Below are positions 12,768-19,508 of a stretch of DNA of 28,420 nt, one piece after another; positions within the stretch are counted from its first letter, which is position 1; every line of letters starts with the position of its first letter. The notes under the pieces were generated by a model. It had not been told where the DNA came from. It worked only from the letters and a program-made list of their open reading frames with translations, and searched no databases. A program made the position numbers and the translations under genes. This DNA comes from a virus, in the IMG/VR virus record IMGVR_UViG_3300027973_000176, positions 1 through 28,420 of that record. One strand, 5' to 3'.

Positions 12768-12969
12768 TCCCTTGGGCGGAAACGTCAACAAGCCCAAGCC
12801 GCGCGATCTCTGCTTCGCATTCGTCTTTTGTTCCTACGAACAGCACGCTCTGCGTCGAGATCGACTTTTCTGTCTCATCAAAAAAGATGATCGTGCTGCC
12901 ATCGTAAACGAGTTTCCAAGCGGTTGACTCGTCGAATGCCCATCCCTGTTCGTTCGGTGAAATTATCAT
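12733..12969 (-). CDS. Hypothetical conserved-looking phage protein, 78 aa
   Basis: A compact protein: N-terminal MIISPNEQGWAFDESTAWKL, beta-strands around VYDGSTIIFFDETEKS and a C-terminal helix DECEAEIARLGL. The ATG overlaps the preceding PATR fibre stop (ATGA), and its end overlaps the next gene by about 35 bases. Unrecognised. By order it may be a small connector or a fibre accessory protein. Confidence 0.6.
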   Translation of the reverse strand: MIISPNEQGWAFDESTAWKLVYDGSTIIFFDETEKSISTQSVLFVGTKDECEAEIARLGLVDVSAQGNDNGLDLHADA

Positions 12970-14084
12970 GCTATTGTAAGCGTAGAGTTTGCCGATGTAT
13001 AAACTCCGGTTCGCCCTGGAGCACCGACCAAAGTCACCGTTGCGTAGGTGTTGGTAGTTGTCCCTTGGAAAAACCGAAACGTCGTGCCTGCGGTCGGGGC
13101 GACACTAAAGGAAACGGATAGGGTTGTTGCCGTAAAACTAGCCGTCGGTGTTGTTGTGGCGAATGGTTTTAATACGCGCAGCGTGCCTGCGCTGATGGTC
13201 GTTGACCCAGTGTAGTCATTCGAAACGGTAAGAGTCGAAAAGGTTGAAAGAATACCAGTTCCAACTTTTGTAAAAGACCCCGCTCCTGTTATTTTACCCG
13301 TTATTGAAAAAGCCGAAGTCGAGTTCCCTACGCTTGAATTTGTGCCAGTAGCCAACGTGATCGTGCCAGTATAAATTGGAGTGTGTGCTGCAACAACCGA
13401 CTCATTCCACAACGCTCCATTGCCATCTGGCCCAGCTCCACCGTTGAGCGTGAAATTATTGTTGATCGTCGGGCTGGTATAAGTCCTAAATTGCGCCCCG
13501 CTAGAAATGTTGATTGCTGCATTTCGGAGTGGTAATCCACCTGTCCCATCCTGACCGACGCCGCCGTTGAGAATGTTTATTTGCCCCAAGCTTGTTCCAG
13601 CCGTCCCATTAAAATAAAGTGGCAATGTGCCAGCAGTTGTGTCCACATAAATATTCAAGGTCTGACCGCCACCGTTAAGAGTGCCAGATTGTAAGTTTAT
13701 CTGACGCAAGCCGTTCAACTTTGTTACAGTAGCCGTAGCAGAAAGAGTTATCGCTCCACTTACAGCAAAGTTGTTGGCACTAAGATTGTAGGCAAGGTTT
13801 CCTCCATTTAAGGTAGTCGTTCCCACAACCAAGGCCGTATTATTTGCGCCATTTCCAATTTGTAGGGTTCCAGCATTAACAATAGTTCCGCCCGTGTAGG
13901 TATTGGTTGCGGTGAGGGTAAGAGTTCCAGGCCCATTTTTTACAATGCCAAATGCTCCAGAAATGACGGTTGAAAAAGTTGTCGCAGAATAAATCGTGAA
14001 CTGGCGAAAAGCGGCGGTTGCGCTTGCAATGAAACTAACAACGCTTGCACCAACTTTTGCTGCGCTGGAGTCGTTTAATTTCAT
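12966..14084 (-). CDS. Fibre-like protein with autotransporter-type PATR repeats, 372 aa
   Basis: A Gly/Thr/Asn-rich beta-solenoid protein. Two units match the passenger-associated transport repeat of autotransporters: residues 46-78, with G-x-G-T-L-T-L, N-T-Y-T-G-G-T and A-G-T-L-Q-I-G-N, and residues 270-303, with K-V-G-T-G, D-Y-T-G-S-T and S-A-G-T-L-R-V. Between them are NGG-centred turns (TLNGGNLAYN, ILNGGVGQDG, LNGGAGPDG). There is no signal peptide and no beta-barrel translocator, so it is not an exported autotransporter. It follows the collagen-tandem repeat fibre (ATGA overlap), and together they look like surface appendages, perhaps at the neck. The passenger-type repeat was probably acquired from a host surface protein. 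Confidence 0.75.
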   Translation of the reverse strand: MKLNDSSAAKVGASVVSFIASATAAFRQFTIYSATTFSTVISGAFGIVKNGPGTLTLTATNTYTGGTIVNAGTLQIGNGANNTALVVGTTTLNGGNLAYNLSANNFAVSGAITLSATATVTKLNGLRQINLQSGTLNGGGQTLNIYVDTTAGTLPLYFNGTAGTSLGQINILNGGVGQDGTGGLPLRNAAINISSGAQFRTYTSPTINNNFTLNGGAGPDGNGALWNESVVAAHTPIYTGTITLATGTNSSVGNSTSAFSITGKITGAGSFTKVGTGILSTFSTLTVSNDYTGSTTISAGTLRVLKPFATTTPTASFTATTLSVSFSVAPTAGTTFRFFQGTTTNTYATVTLVGAPGRTGVYTSANSTLTIA

Positions 14085-15238
14085 CCGACGATAATATAAA
14101 GCGTGTTTGCAACTGGCGAAGTGATCGCAGAATATCCAGCAGAAGTGATCTGCATCATGTTTGTAAGCTGCGTTGCGCCGGTGATGCCGCTCGTTACCGA
14201 AGTAACGTATGCGCCTGCCGTTTGTTTTGCGTTGAACGTGCTCCAGTCTGTCGAGCTTAGATATCCGTTTGTTGTTGCCGTTGCTACGGGAATGGACAAA
14301 GCTGGTGTTGTTCCGCCGCTTGAAACTATCGGTGTTGTGCCTGCAACGGACGTGACATAAGTTCCAGCAGCCTGCTTAGAATTAAACGTGCTCCAGTCTG
14401 TCGAGCTTAAATATCCATTTGTTGTCGCTGTCGCAACCGGAATTGATAATGCTGGTGTAGTTCCCCCGCTAGAAACAACTGGCGATGTGCCTGCAACGGA
14501 TGTAACGTAAGTCCCCGCCGCTTGCTTGGAATTAAATGTGCTCCAATCTGCCGATGCGAGATATCCGCTTGTCGTAGCAGTTGCGACCGGCATCGAAATT
14601 GTTGGAGTTGTTCCCCCGCTAGAAACGATGGGCGATGTTCCGCTGACCGCTGTGACCTTTCCGCTTAGATCGGCTGAAAGGCCGCTGATAGTGCCGATGG
14701 TTAGCGTCGAGTTCTGAAACGCCGTTGCGCTCGAATTGAAAAGGATTGCTTGGTTGTCGGATGGCGACGTGAGCGAGACTGAATAGCCTCGCAACTTGAT
14801 GACCTCTGGTGCTGGGAACGTCCCGGAAAGATCGCCCGACGCTGCGCCTGTCGGCGTGCGAGAGTCGCTCAATCGTGAATCGGTCGTGATGACTGCCGTT
14901 CCCGAAATTGCGCTCGGTGAAATACCGGATGATGGAGCCTTTGCGTCGAGAACCGTTTGAAGATCGGTCTGGTTTGAAAGCGTTCCCGCGATGCCGCCCC
15001 AGATCGCTGCTCCAGCACCACCGCCTGTGACCCACTCGGTATCGTAGTCAGCGTTTGTTTTCTTCGCGAGCACTTGCCCTGTAAGTCCACCTGTAACAAC
15101 GCCAACGCCAACCGGCCCAATCGGACCCTGCGATCCGGTCGGCCCTGCCGCGCCTGCAATAATTTCAGTGCGGAGAATCGGTTGATTATCGACGTTAGGA
15201 ACTTCGCGACCCTCGTCTTCTGGAAAGAAAATGCTCAT
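14081..15238 (-). CDS. Tail or neck fibre with collagen-like segment and 50-residue tandem repeats, 385 aa
   Basis: Residues 31-46 are Gly-X-Y triplets (AGPTGSQGPIGPVGVG). Next is a GQVLAKKTNADYDTEWVTGG block, a common phage fibre segment, and GAASGDLSGTFPAPEVIKL, also widespread in fibres. Residues about 196-348 contain three 50-residue repeats, each with DWSTFN-x-K-Q, AGTYVTSV, P-(I/V)-V-S-S-G-G-T-T and ATATT-x-GYL. The C-terminus is short (AGYSAITSPVANTLYIIVG). Neither a chaperone nor a receptor-binding head domain is recognisable. A trimeric fibre is the natural reading. Confidence 0.8.
   Translation of the reverse strand: MSIFFPEDEGREVPNVDNQPILRTEIIAGAAGPTGSQGPIGPVGVGVVTGGLTGQVLAKKTNADYDTEWVTGGGAGAAIWGGIAGTLSNQTDLQTVLDAKAPSSGISPSAISGTAVITTDSRLSDSRTPTGAASGDLSGTFPAPEVIKLRGYSVSLTSPSDNQAILFNSSATAFQNSTLTIGTISGLSADLSGKVTAVSGTSPIVSSGGTTPTISMPVATATTSGYLASADWSTFNSKQAAGTYVTSVAGTSPVVSSGGTTPALSIPVATATTNGYLSSTDWSTFNSKQAAGTYVTSVAGTTPIVSSGGTTPALSIPVATATTNGYLSSTDWSTFNAKQTAGAYVTSVTSGITGATQLTNMMQITSAGYSAITSPVANTLYIIVG
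14195..14653 (+). repeat. Three direct repeats of 150 bp inside the fibre gene
   Basis: Three in-frame units of 150 bases, very similar to each other and encoding the 50-residue repeat of the fibre. Unequal recombination between them could change fibre length without breaking the frame. Confidence 0.85.
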
Positions 15239-15537
15239 TTGTTGATGTCCTCAAGGCTGAAATCGACCGAGACAGCGTCTTGCGAAAGCTCTGCGGACGT
15301 GACGCGAAAGCGTCGGCCACCAATGACAAGCACATCTCCGAGAGAAATGGTCTGCACGAACGAATCGTAAACCGCCGTGATCGTCATTGATGCGGAGTCT
15401 AAGAATCCGCCGTCGGCTAGGCTGTTGTCGCGCCGGTATGTTGTGCGGTTGGCGAGAAAATTACGCTCGCCAAATGTGACCGCAAGCGGAAGATCGTCCA
15501 TCATCGCCACCAAGTCGTTAGTAAATATGTCTAGCAT
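15235..15537 (-). CDS. Small head-tail joining candidate, 100 aa
   Basis: Start taken at ATG 15537 (MLDIFTNDLVAMM); an in-frame GTG at 15543 would add two residues. The C-terminal half is a small beta-barrel-like pattern (QTISLGDVLVIGGRRFRVTS, then DAVSVDFSLED), as in FII-type head completion proteins. The start region can form a hairpin (CCCAC/GTGGG, about 15540-15552) that would hide the ATG, a possible translational brake. It is the first gene after the glycosyltransferases and the last before the fibres, and its stop overlaps the next start. The role is inferred from size, fold pattern and order. Confidence 0.5.
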   Translation of the reverse strand: MLDIFTNDLVAMMDDLPLAVTFGERNFLANRTTYRRDNSLADGGFLDSASMTITAVYDSFVQTISLGDVLVIGGRRFRVTSAELSQDAVSVDFSLEDINK

Positions 15538-15558
15538 TCCCACATTGTGGGGAAGGCG

Positions 15559-16221
15559 TCAAAACTTGCGCTCGATTCTGCGCTGATTCGGATGCGTGAA
15601 GTCGTGTTTCGGGCTGTCCGAAATGTGAACCCAGCTTTTGCGAAATGCGGACGCAAGAATGCTCGTGCTCGTGTTGATCGTCACAACCTCGTTGGCGTCC
15701 CGGATGTATGCGCACATATATTCTATGCTCTCAAACTCAGCCATACCGTGAGCGGCCTTCCCCGCGCAAAGAACGGGCCTTCCGTTGGCGACTTGATGCG
15801 CCGCTGTAATAACATCCCTCGGATCGATCTTTTTATCTTGACTATATCCGGTCGGGAAACAAAGAACCCAAGATTTGAGTTCGGGCGGAGTGACGATGGC
15901 AGGCGAGTTAAGCACAATCTGCCTGTCGATGTTCTTGCCTTCGGGAAAGAGTCCGTAAACGTAGTCGCTCCAACCCAGCGGACTCGCACAAAAGTCTTCG
16001 TGCAGGTCTGGCCAGATTTGCAAGTTGATGATTCGGTCAAATCCGCCGTGATCGTTCTGTGGATAAATCGGCTTGCAGTAATCGACCATCGCGAAAAGAC
16101 CGTGATACTCCGCCATGCACTCAAAGGTTACGTTGTGCCCTTGATCCGCGAAGTGCTTCGCTATCGGCAAGCACCGAGCGATGTCTCCGAGCCTCAAATG
16201 ATAGATAATTAAGATATTCAA
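15559..16221 (-). CDS. GT-B-type glycosyltransferase (GT9/heptosyltransferase-like), 220 aa
   Basis: The likely start is TTG 16221, which overlaps the stop of the gene before (TTGA) and begins directly at the first strand (NILIIYHLRLGDIARCLPIA). The ATG at 16320 would read over the previous gene. The L-R-L-G-D-I motif and following helix are the N-terminal Rossmann hallmark of GT9-like ADP-heptose transferases. The middle has FDRIINLQIWPDLHED. Near the C-terminus comes VVTINTSTSILASAFRKSWV, resembling the second Rossmann domain. At 220 residues it is shorter than full GT9 enzymes (about 320-350), so part of a domain is reduced. The sugar and acceptor are unknown. Confidence 0.65.
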   Translation of the reverse strand: MNILIIYHLRLGDIARCLPIAKHFADQGHNVTFECMAEYHGLFAMVDYCKPIYPQNDHGGFDRIINLQIWPDLHEDFCASPLGWSDYVYGLFPEGKNIDRQIVLNSPAIVTPPELKSWVLCFPTGYSQDKKIDPRDVITAAHQVANGRPVLCAGKAAHGMAEFESIEYMCAYIRDANEVVTINTSTSILASAFRKSWVHISDSPKHDFTHPNQRRIERKF

Positions 16222-16802
16222 AACGTGTAATATTGTTCCGCGGATTTTCCTGCGACCCAGCCATGGAATCCGAATGAGCGATCCGGCCCCGCCGTGTTTT
16301 CTTCGATATAATGCTCCCAAGAGAATGCTGCCGCTACGTTTACCGGAGCGTATTTGATGCCGTTATCTCGAAACCCTTGCTCCATTGTCCTGCACAAAAA
16401 GACATCGCCTGCCTCGCCCTTCCAAAGTGCCTCGGCCTTTGCTGCCATTTGCAAGAACTTCTGGCTCTGGAGCGTGAATCCGGTATTGCCTACGCGATGT
16501 CCCACGTTCCAGGACGCAGGCCATGGTGCGCCGATCATATCGTATTCTAGCCACGAATCCTGCCACAGGTGCGGATTGGCAATAAAGCCATCGTGCGTGC
16601 AAATGAGCGCGTGCGAGGTGTCGATATAGTCGGAGAATCGGCCTAATTCCCAATGCATCGCCTGTTGATAGTTGCAGTCCTCCGCGATGTAAACAGCGTC
16701 TCCGAATCCACCTAGTCCGCAAAGGTGGTTGAACAGCTTTTCGCTTTGTTCGTGCCTCGTTTTCAATCCTTCAAAAACGATAAGAGTGACGTCTTTATTC
16801 AT
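16218..16802 (-). CDS. DUF5672-like putative glycosyltransferase, 194 aa
   Basis: Contains the DUF5672 hallmarks: HALICTHDGFIANPHLWQDS (residues 64-83), EYDMIGAPWP (85-94) and VGNTGFTLQSQKFLQ (102-116). This family has a GT-A-like fold and is found in polysaccharide clusters. The ATG overlaps the upstream stop as ATGA, and the next gene starts on its stop, so the three sugar genes form one unit. Two Trp-rich stretches near the end (AAAFSWEHYIEE, FGFHGWVAGK) are typical of the family's C-terminus. A catalytic role has to be inferred; no DxD is obvious. Confidence 0.7.
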   Translation of the reverse strand: MNKDVTLIVFEGLKTRHEQSEKLFNHLCGLGGFGDAVYIAEDCNYQQAMHWELGRFSDYIDTSHALICTHDGFIANPHLWQDSWLEYDMIGAPWPASWNVGHRVGNTGFTLQSQKFLQMAAKAEALWKGEAGDVFLCRTMEQGFRDNGIKYAPVNVAAAFSWEHYIEENTAGPDRSFGFHGWVAGKSAEQYYTF

Positions 16803-18472
16803 TTTGGGTGGAGTTCGTCGAAGATTGCTTTTGCCCTTGCATACTCTTCCGGATCGTTTCCGCGCTGGTATGTAGCATCGAGCGGACGCTCTTCAAAAAA
16901 CGGATGGTGATGAACGATGCTAATGTCACGAGCATCAACAATCGCCCCATTTTTCGCGGCACGAAAGGTGAAATCTGTGTCCGAATAGACGTTTCGGAAT
17001 CGTGGGTTGAATAGTCCATTTTGCTCATAATATTTACACGTTAAGATCGCCATGCATAGTAAATCGTCTTTTCTATATCCGTCCGAGATACGAAGCACCT
17101 GTGGTTTTGAAATGTCGAGACGCTTTCCTATCATCTCGTCCCACCCTGGCGGACATTCCCAGTCGTCCGATAACTGGATAATGATGTCGCCGGTCGCTTG
17201 CGCTGCTCCCAAGTTCCACGCTCCGACGGAATACCCATGGTCTTTTTGTGTCACGGATCTGAATCGTTTCAGAACGTCGGCTTTTTCGTCGTCGTGATCG
17301 ACCGCAAATATATGCTCCACGCGCTCTGGATGCGTTGCGCGGGATAACCATAGCGTCATACATTGCACGGCCTCTACCGGCCTTCCTCGCGTTGCGTGGA
17401 CTAGTGAGATTTTCGGCTTGCTTGATCCTGCCAGCGTCTCGCGCTCGATCTCTTCGGCGTCTTCGTTGCGTCCGAGCAGTCGGAGCGTCCATGCGTAGAG
17501 TTGATCGCCCTTCCAACCGTACCACTCTTTTCGGTGCGTCCATTGTGGGAACTTAGGAGTAGGCACTTTGAGCATTTCTTCTACCACTTTTAAAGCATCT
17601 TGATATTTTTTCTCGTCAAGAAGGATGCTGGCCTCAAGCCCGTAGGCTTCGCGGCGGTTCGGCTCAAGTGCCTTGGCCTTGCGTGCTAGGTTGAGCGATG
17701 TTTCTCCGCTCGTAATGTTGGCACAATTTAAAAGGATTTCGTAGCGGTTAACGCCGTCGAGATCGCTCAAGGCCAATGCCTCCGATCCATATTTTGCAGC
17801 GAGTTCCTTGTTTCCTGCGATGAAGTTCTCGTAGTGCAAATAGAATTTGAAATGCGAAGTCATCCGATCTTGGTGCATCAAGATTCTGCGGTTGCGCTCG
17901 CTGCTGTTCCTATGACCTATTGGTGGTTGGTGTATGATTTCAAGATCGCGCCGCATACAGACCTGCACGTCCTTTGTAGGCTGCGCGTTCTCATGCACCG
18001 GCCGATGCCACCATGCCGTGTGGTAACGAAAGAATCGCTCGCGTGGTGCGCGTTTGCCCTGCTCTGGAATAACGTAGTCGGTGAGAATCCAATCTTGTTC
18101 CGGTGGGCATTCTTCAAGAGCGGTCAGCGTTGGCGCGACCATTGCCGGTTCAATTATGTCGTCGCAGTCTGCCCACATAACCCAGCCGTCTTTCCCTGCG
18201 AGTTCGTAAGCCTTGGCGAATGCTTTGTTCCGAGCTTCGCCAAAGTTGTCGAGGTGCTCCCAATCTGCGACCAGCGGAGAGTTGAGATATTCGTCAACGT
18301 GACAACCGAGTTCCCTGGCGATGTCGAGCGTGCGATCTGGTACGAGTGCTCCAATTGCTCGGACGATAACGATCTCGTCACAGATTTGTTTGAGCGACTT
18401 TATGCATCGCTCGATGCGCGGTTCTTCGTTGCCACAGATAAGCCCTGCGACCAGCTTCTTTTTTTGGTTCAT
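16799..18472 (-). CDS. Two-domain GT-A glycosyltransferase with TPR linker, 557 aa
   Basis: Start at ATG 18472 (MNQKKKLVAGLICGNEEPRI), with AAGGG five bases upstream. The frame to 18499 would add nine unlikely residues. Residues 1-185 are a GT2/WaaE-like domain: GNEEPRIERC, VDEYLNSP, FGEARNKAF and the acidic motif W-A-D-C-D-D (residues 100-105). Residues about 218-346 are helical TPR-like repeats. Residues 353-557 form a second GT-A domain with the opening ISLVHATRGRP, a VGAWNLGAAQATGDIIIQLS block leading to D-D-W (436-438) and a C-terminal H-H-H-P. Such double domains can add two sugars. It begins right after the capsid terminator. Confidence 0.82.
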   Translation of the reverse strand: MNQKKKLVAGLICGNEEPRIERCIKSLKQICDEIVIVRAIGALVPDRTLDIARELGCHVDEYLNSPLVADWEHLDNFGEARNKAFAKAYELAGKDGWVMWADCDDIIEPAMVAPTLTALEECPPEQDWILTDYVIPEQGKRAPRERFFRYHTAWWHRPVHENAQPTKDVQVCMRRDLEIIHQPPIGHRNSSERNRRILMHQDRMTSHFKFYLHYENFIAGNKELAAKYGSEALALSDLDGVNRYEILLNCANITSGETSLNLARKAKALEPNRREAYGLEASILLDEKKYQDALKVVEEMLKVPTPKFPQWTHRKEWYGWKGDQLYAWTLRLLGRNEDAEEIERETLAGSSKPKISLVHATRGRPVEAVQCMTLWLSRATHPERVEHIFAVDHDDEKADVLKRFRSVTQKDHGYSVGAWNLGAAQATGDIIIQLSDDWECPPGWDEMIGKRLDISKPQVLRISDGYRKDDLLCMAILTCKYYEQNGLFNPRFRNVYSDTDFTFRAAKNGAIVDARDISIVHHHPFFEERPLDATYQRGNDPEEYARAKAIFDELHPK

Positions 18473-18502
18473 GTTTACCCTTGATGTATATGTCAACAAA
18501 AC

Positions 18503-18530
18503 AAAAAAGCCACCCCTTTCGAGGTGGCTT
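18503..18530 (-). terminator. Strong intrinsic terminator after the major capsid gene
   Basis: Read on minus: AAGCCACCTC, tetraloop GAAA, GGGGTGGCTT, then a run of six Ts. Ten pairs with one T-G wobble. It lies 25 bases after the capsid stop and 31 before the glycosyltransferase start. Confidence 0.88.
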
Positions 18531-18554
18531 CTTCGATGCTAACTTGCGGGAATC

Positions 18555-19508
18555 TTAAGCGAATCCCGTTGTGATGCGGATGATGCTGGATCCGTCGATA
18601 ACTTTCTCAGCTGAGTTCTGACGAACACGGAGGACGTTAGCGCGGCGGGCCTCGTCGCGGTAGGTTTCGGAAACGAAAGGCACGGGGCTATCTGCTGCCC
18701 ATACAATCGTGCGACCGAATCCGCCACCGGAGAAATCTCCGCCGGAGGTTGTGGCAAGTGCGAGGTAGGTGTTCGACCAGATGAATCCACCGGCGTAGGC
18801 TTGACCCTTTGCGGCACTGTTCTTTGGTGCGCGGCCTACGAGAACGCGGTCAACGCCGACAGCGGCGGCAACTTCGCCTTCGCTCAAGAGACGGCTTTGA
18901 TTCGATGGAACAACGCCGAAGAACTGGTTCTGCACAAATGTTGAACGACGGATGCGCTCGAACACAGGCATGGACATGATGAGCGTATTTGGAAGAACGC
19001 CATATTTGGCGAGTTCCAACTTAGCTGCTGCAACGTCACCGGGAACATTGAAGCTGGTGATGTTGGCCTCTGTGTATGCTGCGGTCGCGCTAATCGCGGT
19101 CAGACCGTTGGCGGCGAATGCTGCTGTAGCAACACGAGCCTCGTGGCTGATTTGGATTTGACGGAGGAGCATCGAAGCGATGTTCACCTCGGTGTCGAAA
19201 AATCTGTCGAGATCGCGGCGGTTGGAGTCAGGAAGAACCTCTTCGAGTCCGTACTCAATCGCGTCGAAAGAATCGCTCGTGAACCGGCGGCTTGTGCGGG
19301 GATATCCAGCACCAGCGGCGATCTTCAGAACGTCGTCGTTGAGAGTTTCAGAATCACCGATGTTCAGCTTCAGGTACGCGCCGGACTTAACGTCGGACGA
19401 GTAAACTGGCATGACTTCGGTTCCGATGAACAAATTATTTTTGTTCGACAGACCTTCGAAGACGGCCTGCGCGATATCGGCGCGGATTGTTGTGTATGAG
19501 AGTGCCAT
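18555..19508 (-). CDS. Major capsid protein, 317 aa
   Basis: Follows the protease-scaffold and decoration genes and is followed by the strongest terminator of the window, the usual setting of the capsid gene. The sequence has features of HK97-fold shells: an N-terminal arm, a middle with DLDRFFDTEVNIASMLLRQI (residues 99-118) reading as a spine helix, then LELAKYGVLPNTLIMSMPVF and a C-terminal region with TIVWAADSPVPF and VLRVRQNSAEKVI. The opening, MALSYTTIRADIAQAVFEGL, resembles the coat of other phages with DUF2190-type decoration genes next door. The leader has no Shine-Dalgarno. No protease cleavage site is evident, although one is expected near the N-terminus. Confidence 0.82.
   Translation of the reverse strand: MALSYTTIRADIAQAVFEGLSNKNNLFIGTEVMPVYSSDVKSGAYLKLNIGDSETLNDDVLKIAAGAGYPRTSRRFTSDSFDAIEYGLEEVLPDSNRRDLDRFFDTEVNIASMLLRQIQISHEARVATAAFAANGLTAISATAAYTEANITSFNVPGDVAAAKLELAKYGVLPNTLIMSMPVFERIRRSTFVQNQFFGVVPSNQSRLLSEGEVAAAVGVDRVLVGRAPKNSAAKGQAYAGGFIWSNTYLALATTSGGDFSGGGFGRTIVWAADSPVPFVSETYRDEARRANVLRVRQNSAEKVIDGSSIIRITTGFA

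Follow-up and report, generated by a model that had tools for sequence, protein, structure and literature searches.

The 28,420-base virus record IMGVR_UViG_3300027973_000176, the whole of which we refer to as the window, carries a cassette of three genes for putative sugar-transferring enzymes among the genes for its virion. The main genes all lie on the minus strand, in the order terminase, portal, head genes, capsid gene, hairpin, a two-domain GT-A glycosyltransferase (GT) that we call GT1, a DUF5672 protein, a GT9-like protein, a head-closure-like gene, fibre-like genes and tail genes. The features that concern us are as follows.

18555..19508, minus strand: major capsid protein gene (317 amino acids; phrog_1005 major head protein, E 1.7e-27)
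18502..18535, minus strand: terminator-like hairpin of 15 pairs between the capsid gene and the cassette
16799..18472, minus strand: GT1, two-domain GT-A glycosyltransferase with a TPR-like linker, the constant gene of the cassette (557 amino acids; PF00535, phrog_13126, phrog_14945)
16218..16802, minus strand: DUF5672 protein with a predicted GT-A-like fold, in exchangeable slot 2 (194 amino acids; PF18922, E 9.6e-17)
15559..16221, minus strand: divergent GT9-like enzyme (heptosyltransferase fold, as predicted), in slot 3 (220 amino acids, TTG start)
15235..15543, minus strand: next virion gene downstream, with a weak likeness to head-closure or attachment genes (102 amino acids; phrog_82, E 0.044; PF05354, E 0.0079)
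14081-15238 and 12966-14084, just downstream: fibre-like gene and Passenger-associated-transport repeat (PATR) gene (PF12951), respectively

The preliminary description had placed the cassette between a capsid terminator and the head-tail genes, and we indeed find three sugar enzymes amid virion genes with a terminator in front. The overlaps said to join the three genes are likewise present, as AAAATGAAT (ATGA) between GT1 and the DUF5672 gene and as TTTTGAAT (TTGA) between the DUF5672 and GT9-like genes. GT genes inside a virion structural operon, as found here, are a feature of phage virion-glycosylation loci. The GT1 reading frame spans 16799-18499 when an upstream TTG is counted, AAGGG precedes the ATG at 18472, and this ATG is the likely start. 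An Rfam search of the window gave no match.

GT1 lies within 1.5 kb downstream of the capsid gene in all 126 testable distinct capsid sequences, and the gap between the two is shorter than 150 bases in 116 of these loci. The survey pool comprised 310 loci, or 131 distinct capsid sequences after removal of duplicates, of which five were left out of the linkage count for having fewer than 160 bases downstream; the underlying scans of viral contigs kept 80 of 132 relatives for GT1, 80 of 109 for the capsid protein, 80 of 183 for the capsid protein with a divergent first sequence, and 76 loci for DUF5672. Counted from the capsid queries alone, GT1 is next in 115 of 115 loci (119 found, 4 too short). 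Counted from the GT1 queries, a capsid gene stands upstream in 65 of 68 distinct GT1 sequences; two more have too little DNA, and the remaining locus (L065) ends within an insert gene that elsewhere separates the capsid gene and GT1. The linkage holds over capsid identities of about 71 to 100% to the window, and GT1 is present in 11 of 12 records searched, the exception being the unrelated G011. Because GT1 follows the capsid gene in 126 of 126 relatives, the cassette is not a local insertion, and this gene-neighbourhood survey excludes the absence from relatives that the preliminary description had named as the result that would tell against it.

Ten of the 126 capsid-GT1 gaps carry inserts (L296, L251, L242, L282, L276, L217, L144, L220, L133 and L295). 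These include genes for Mom (L296), a Mom-like protein (L251, E 3e-12), a C5 cytosine methylase (L242, E 2e-29), a 184-amino-acid protein without a Pfam match (L282, L276) and a 210-amino-acid phrog_15826 protein, which we take to resemble DpdA-type 7-deazaguanine enzymes. In the same pool, part of the head-gene region occurs twice in record G001, the copies differing slightly (L314:90-2801 and L315:17320-20001), and L087 and L127 belong to one contig, whose two capsid-GT1 ends are inverted relative to each other. In both cases related genomes were apparently joined during assembly.

The match of GT1 to the Pfam family Glycos_transf_2 (PF00535) has E 1.2e-14 and, at 55 bits, exceeds the family cut-off of 23.3; GT1 residues 6-345 (E 1.4e-17) and 354-539 (E 1e-10) match two separate PHROG glycosyltransferase families. 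An acidic DxD-type motif is an expected feature of GT-A enzymes, and a conserved one is present in each domain: ADCDD (A101 D102 C103 D104 D105) and SDD (S435 D436 D437) are invariant across 11 aligned sequences, ten of them relatives 62 to 95% identical to the first, and a late HHHP is invariant likewise. Between the domains the Pfam TPR matches are all sub-threshold (E 0.056-0.21), and the GT1 profile matches designed TPR proteins in the PDB at E 0.015-0.018; since these are the only signs of it, a TPR-like linker is plausible, not proven. The two GT domains of the preliminary description stand on family matches and motifs, while its TPR linker is plausible only. Against PDB sequences the GT1 profile has six matches at E ≤0.1. 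Three of them are to glycosyltransferases, GmaR (E 2.4e-6) and, twice, SunS (E 3.8e-4 and 8.9e-4); the others are to a WD40 protein and two designed TPR proteins. Both GmaR and SunS act on proteins or peptides, SunS being a peptide S-glycosyltransferase; the relation to SunS is one of profiles only, GT1 scoring 15.2 bits against the cut-off of 350 for the SunS family TIGR04195. None of the three cassette proteins has a membrane-like hydrophobic stretch (maximum 19-residue Kyte-Doolittle mean, 1.31).

The other two enzymes were named correctly at the outset, on different grounds. The second protein matches PF18922 at 61.5 bits, above the cut-off of 24.4. Its predicted model is modest (mean pLDDT 68); the best Foldseek match is the PBCV-1 entry 2p6w (E 5e-4), and VIA comparison with a PBCV-1 capsid glycosyltransferase gives Z 9.0 and rmsd 3.7 over 153 aligned residues. 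Three PBCV-1 capsid-glycosyltransferase entries rank first for this model, at about 10% sequence identity and tied with other GT-A folds (mannosylglycerate synthase, Z 8.5). The GT9-like protein has no match in Pfam or PHROG at E 1, nor in NCBIfam, and a PDB profile search with it found no GT9. Its model is confident (pLDDT 91), and VIA places it closest to heptosyltransferase II (1psw; Z 15.6, rmsd 3.5, 218 aligned), WaaC (Z 15.0) and TibC (Z 14.0), whereas GT-B glycosyltransferases of other families score Z ≤10.1; three plant NDH-complex chains score Z 14.3-15.0 too. On its predicted fold, the third cassette protein is a divergent GT-B enzyme of the GT9 kind.

A scan of 10 kb gave 14 hairpins, no more than shuffles give, and the one at 18535-18502 clearly surpassed all the others. 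A hairpin with a T-run is found in 105 of 109 short capsid-GT1 gaps and in none of 109 shuffled gaps, and the stem sequences differ between clades while the structure persists. Selection was estimated from the loci of the DUF5672+GT9 type together with the window, in up to 300 pairs per gene. Median dN/dS is 0.050 for GT1, 0.038 for DUF5672 and 0.043 for GT9, values that are rough because synonymous distances are saturated in 32 to 44 of 300 pairs for the cassette genes; the head genes give 0.070 (capsid), 0.097 (protease-like gene) and 0.073 (head closure). By this sequence-based measure the cassette appears as constrained as the core head genes, and since its reading frames are kept in dozens of relatives at a median dN/dS of 0.04-0.05, they are not there by chance.

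What follows GT1 is exchangeable. We typed 83 loci in which the cassette is traceable through to the head-closure gene, a homologue of 15235..15543 that closes the cassette in all of them. Slots 2 and 3 hold DUF5672+GT9 in 51 loci, a GT-methyltransferase and a GT32-like enzyme in 27, a methyltransferase and GT9 in 4 (one of which, L298, has a further open reading frame without a Pfam match in between), and in the single other locus an FkbM-type methyltransferase and a weakly GT2-like enzyme ahead of GT9. Methyltransferases, fused to GTs or beside them, are accordingly part of the slot repertoire. Mapped onto a 76-protein capsid tree, the five cassette types require at least 5 changes (the least possible being four), and the sister capsids L207 and L073 (support 100/93) carry different modules, so module swap is real though infrequent. 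The GT1 genes of these two loci have a DNA identity of 0.84-0.97 to about residue 480 and of 0.63 thereafter.

Two further genes of this region are themselves variable. An extra small gene lies between GT1 and DUF5672 in 28 of the 51 DUF5672+GT9 loci (e.g., L034:3067-3753, L180, L031) and is absent in the window; it has LERERDEARE-like coiled-coil repeat units, exchangeable start and end pieces and inserts of 198-724 bases, and looks like a recombining repeat gene. The virion-region gene at 12966-14084 encodes Passenger-associated-transport repeats (PF12951, E 2.6e-15), a type known in bacterial autotransporters, and is very variable among relatives.

We consider it probable that the cassette is a virion-glycosylation locus, in which GT1 starts a glycan on a virion protein, most likely the capsid protein, and the slot enzymes extend or cap it. 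GT1 would glycosylate protein in the cytoplasm, would be expressed late as part of the head operon and would draw on nucleotide sugars of the host, a source that we assume because the sugar-nucleotide synthesis epimerase PF01370 is found in 0 of the 22 records searched for markers (these include the window and one unrelated record, and may be fragments). It may add the first sugar or sugars to the major capsid protein, the product of the gene invariably found ahead of GT1, and the second and third enzymes, here DUF5672 GT-A-like and GT9-like, could then extend or cap the glycan, while the conserved hairpin behind the capsid gene would keep enzyme levels low relative to an abundant substrate. 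We infer the activity, late expression, substrate and glycan structure from this arrangement; the benefit might be shielding or an altered particle surface. As the slot enzymes are exchanged as modules, related capsids would carry different glycans. A more specific version of this idea, to which we hold only tentatively and which is somewhat doubtful, is a capsid "serotype" system: GT1, passed on together with the capsid gene as a single unit, would start the head glycan, interchangeable modules (DUF5672+GT9, methyltransferase+GT9, GT-methyltransferase+GT32-like and FkbM-like sets) would give near-identical particles different sugar coats, and recombination in the 3' end of GT1 would be one switching point. 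If virion glycosylation is indeed the function, it would belong to the core traits of a widespread lineage (>100 environmental phage sequences) and at the same time diversify it, DUF5672 would gain a predicted role, and GT1 and the capsid protein would form a small, directly testable enzyme-substrate pair.

Several observations weigh against virion glycosylation. From the obligate linkage it follows that the role is late or virion-related, but not which molecule is the substrate. Distances of GT1 correlate with those of the capsid at 0.70, compared with 0.74 for the protease-like gene and 0.82 for head closure; as this is no better than with other neighbours, we rejected a special co-evolution of GT1 and the capsid. 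The more distant matches that the C-terminal domain of GT1 has among cultured phages map to replication or sugar-gene regions and have no capsid gene beside them, and the one cyanophage DUF5672 relative inspected (S-H68) sits in a sugar-gene cluster. None of the contexts in TunaTartare, HTVC008M, HTVC027P and S-H68 is adjacent to a capsid gene. Among cultured phages, the listed terminase matches reach no more than 21-24% identity and come from phages of varied hosts. Judged by coverage and score of the terminase match, the closest isolate is Verrucomicrobia phage P8625 (24%), which has no annotated GT. Finally, the best folds for the model of the GT9-like protein are lipopolysaccharide (LPS) heptosyltransferases.

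This last point belongs to a different explanation, in which the targets of the enzymes late in infection are sugars of the host surface (LPS core or O-antigen), which we regard as unlikely. The same holds for the purposes it might serve, such as keeping released progeny off debris or excluding other phages, and for the site it supposes, with the GT9-like heptosyltransferase and GT2 enzymes acting at the inner leaflet of the inner membrane. Besides the closeness of the predicted fold to WaaF and WaaC, the modular exchange observed here would suit it, as surface-antigen loci also show modular exchange of sugar enzymes. However, the three proteins have no long hydrophobic stretch, GT1 is universal and not patchy, it is fixed behind the capsid gene, and its profile matches protein GTs, not LPS GTs. 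Lysogenic conversion is in addition unlikely because integrase (PF00589) and resolvase (PF00239) are each found in 0 of 22 records, which may be fragments, with positive controls in 14 of 14 and 10 of 14 genomes, and because neither the GT1 profile nor the terminase alignment found a relative among GTDB species genomes and contigs.

Glycosylation of the virion could also have the fibre-like or PATR-repeat protein as its substrate in place of the capsid protein, which we think improbable. Extra DNA of the fibre/PATR region, between the head-closure and tail-terminator genes, occurs in 27 of the 30 DUF5672+GT9 loci that allowed measurement, compared with 2 of 25 GT-methyltransferase+GT32 loci, and TibC, an enzyme that modifies an autotransporter, is among the Foldseek top matches of the GT9-like model. 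Yet three loci of the DUF5672+GT9 type lack the region (L179, L202, L020), L207 (same contig as L100) retains fibre sequence while carrying the other module, and the association tracks the two capsid clades. The capsid or virion glycosylation that the preliminary description read from gene placement is favoured by the capsid pairing, the protein-GT profile of GT1 and the lack of lysogeny genes in the searched records, with the fibres it also named a less likely obligate substrate because some loci have fibre-like genes and others do not, whereas the pairing of GT1 with the capsid gene is kept. Highly improbable, in our view, is that the cassette glycosylates phage DNA to protect packaged genomes, although DNA-modification genes are also late, and hypermodification of phage DNA by GTs is cited in PMC12619734. 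Some relatives host DNA-modification genes in the capsid-GT1 gap (L296, L251, L242), and record G007, with Mom between capsid gene and GT1, additionally has a Tet_JBP oxygenase (L318:17222-18070, E 7e-13). Inserts of any kind occupy only 10 of 126 gaps, and the routes to a hydroxylated base that were searched for are nearly absent: Mom is found in 2 of 22 records, Tet_JBP in 1 and the thymidylate-synthase family (PF00303) in 0, the window being a fragment, compared with GT1 in 11 of 12.

In a literature search limited to open-licence papers we found no earlier report of this cassette. Phage-borne GT genes are familiar from gtr-type lysogenic conversion cassettes, from which the present one differs in having no integrase or resolvase in 22 records, no membrane-like segments and a position in the head operon. 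PMC9638930 describes GmaR of Listeria as transferring N-acetylglucosamine (GlcNAc) onto flagellin, with a GT followed by a TPR part proposed to bind the protein substrate; GT1 resembles GmaR and SunS in its order of GT-A domain and TPR or helical part, but has a second GT-A domain and is far from meeting the SunS family cut-off. In PBCV-1, A064R combines two GTs and a methyltransferase for capsid glycans (PMC7826918). Virus-coded GTs and methyltransferases are common to both systems, and the DUF5672 model ranks PBCV-1 structures first, but PBCV-1 is a eukaryotic giant virus with N-linked glycans and the match, at about 10% identity, has a Z score tied with other GT-A folds.

Two unrelated phages have distant homologues of the N-terminal half of GT1 beside head or packaging genes: the podovirus ctKR88 has a 26% homologue of the N-terminal half two genes behind an unrelated capsid gene, accompanied by further GT and methyltransferase genes, and ctf1B273 has a 25% homologue of the same half between terminase and portal genes. 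In the unrelated 67-kb record G011 (L191), a DUF5672 relative 67% identical adjoins a terminase-like gene, and genes for a small methyltransferase-like protein, a GT9-like protein and a GT-like protein, all named by reading, lie around the terminase-like and portal-like genes.

To our knowledge, virion glycosylation of tailed phages has been demonstrated in few cultured systems; Freeman et al. (2023) reportedly described it for mycobacteriophages Che8 and Rita. PMC12619734 and PMC11256854 mention, second-hand, glycosylated capsid and tail-tube subunits in mycobacteriophages, the latter naming capsid glycans of Che8 and Rita. In Corndog (cluster O), which has no integrase, an O-methyltransferase, two glycosyltransferases and a putative GlcNAc-transferase lie between portal and protease genes, and capsid modification was proposed (PMC4351075). 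The preliminary view that phage glycosyltransferases usually lie elsewhere therefore holds in part, Corndog-type mycobacteriophages being the counterexample. A tblastn search with GT1 at 1e-5 matched four phage records only, none of them a mycobacteriophage, so the cassette enzymes are not close relatives of the mycobacteriophage ones. Given the Corndog-type locus and the second-hand Che8 and Rita glycans, virion glycosylation of this kind is already known, and the likeness lies in multiple GT and methyltransferase genes among head genes without an integrase. Unlike in Corndog, the locus described here stands behind the capsid gene, is universal in its clade and varies in slots 2 and 3; new here are the obligate pairing of GT1 with the capsid gene, the exchange of modules and the conservation of the hairpin.

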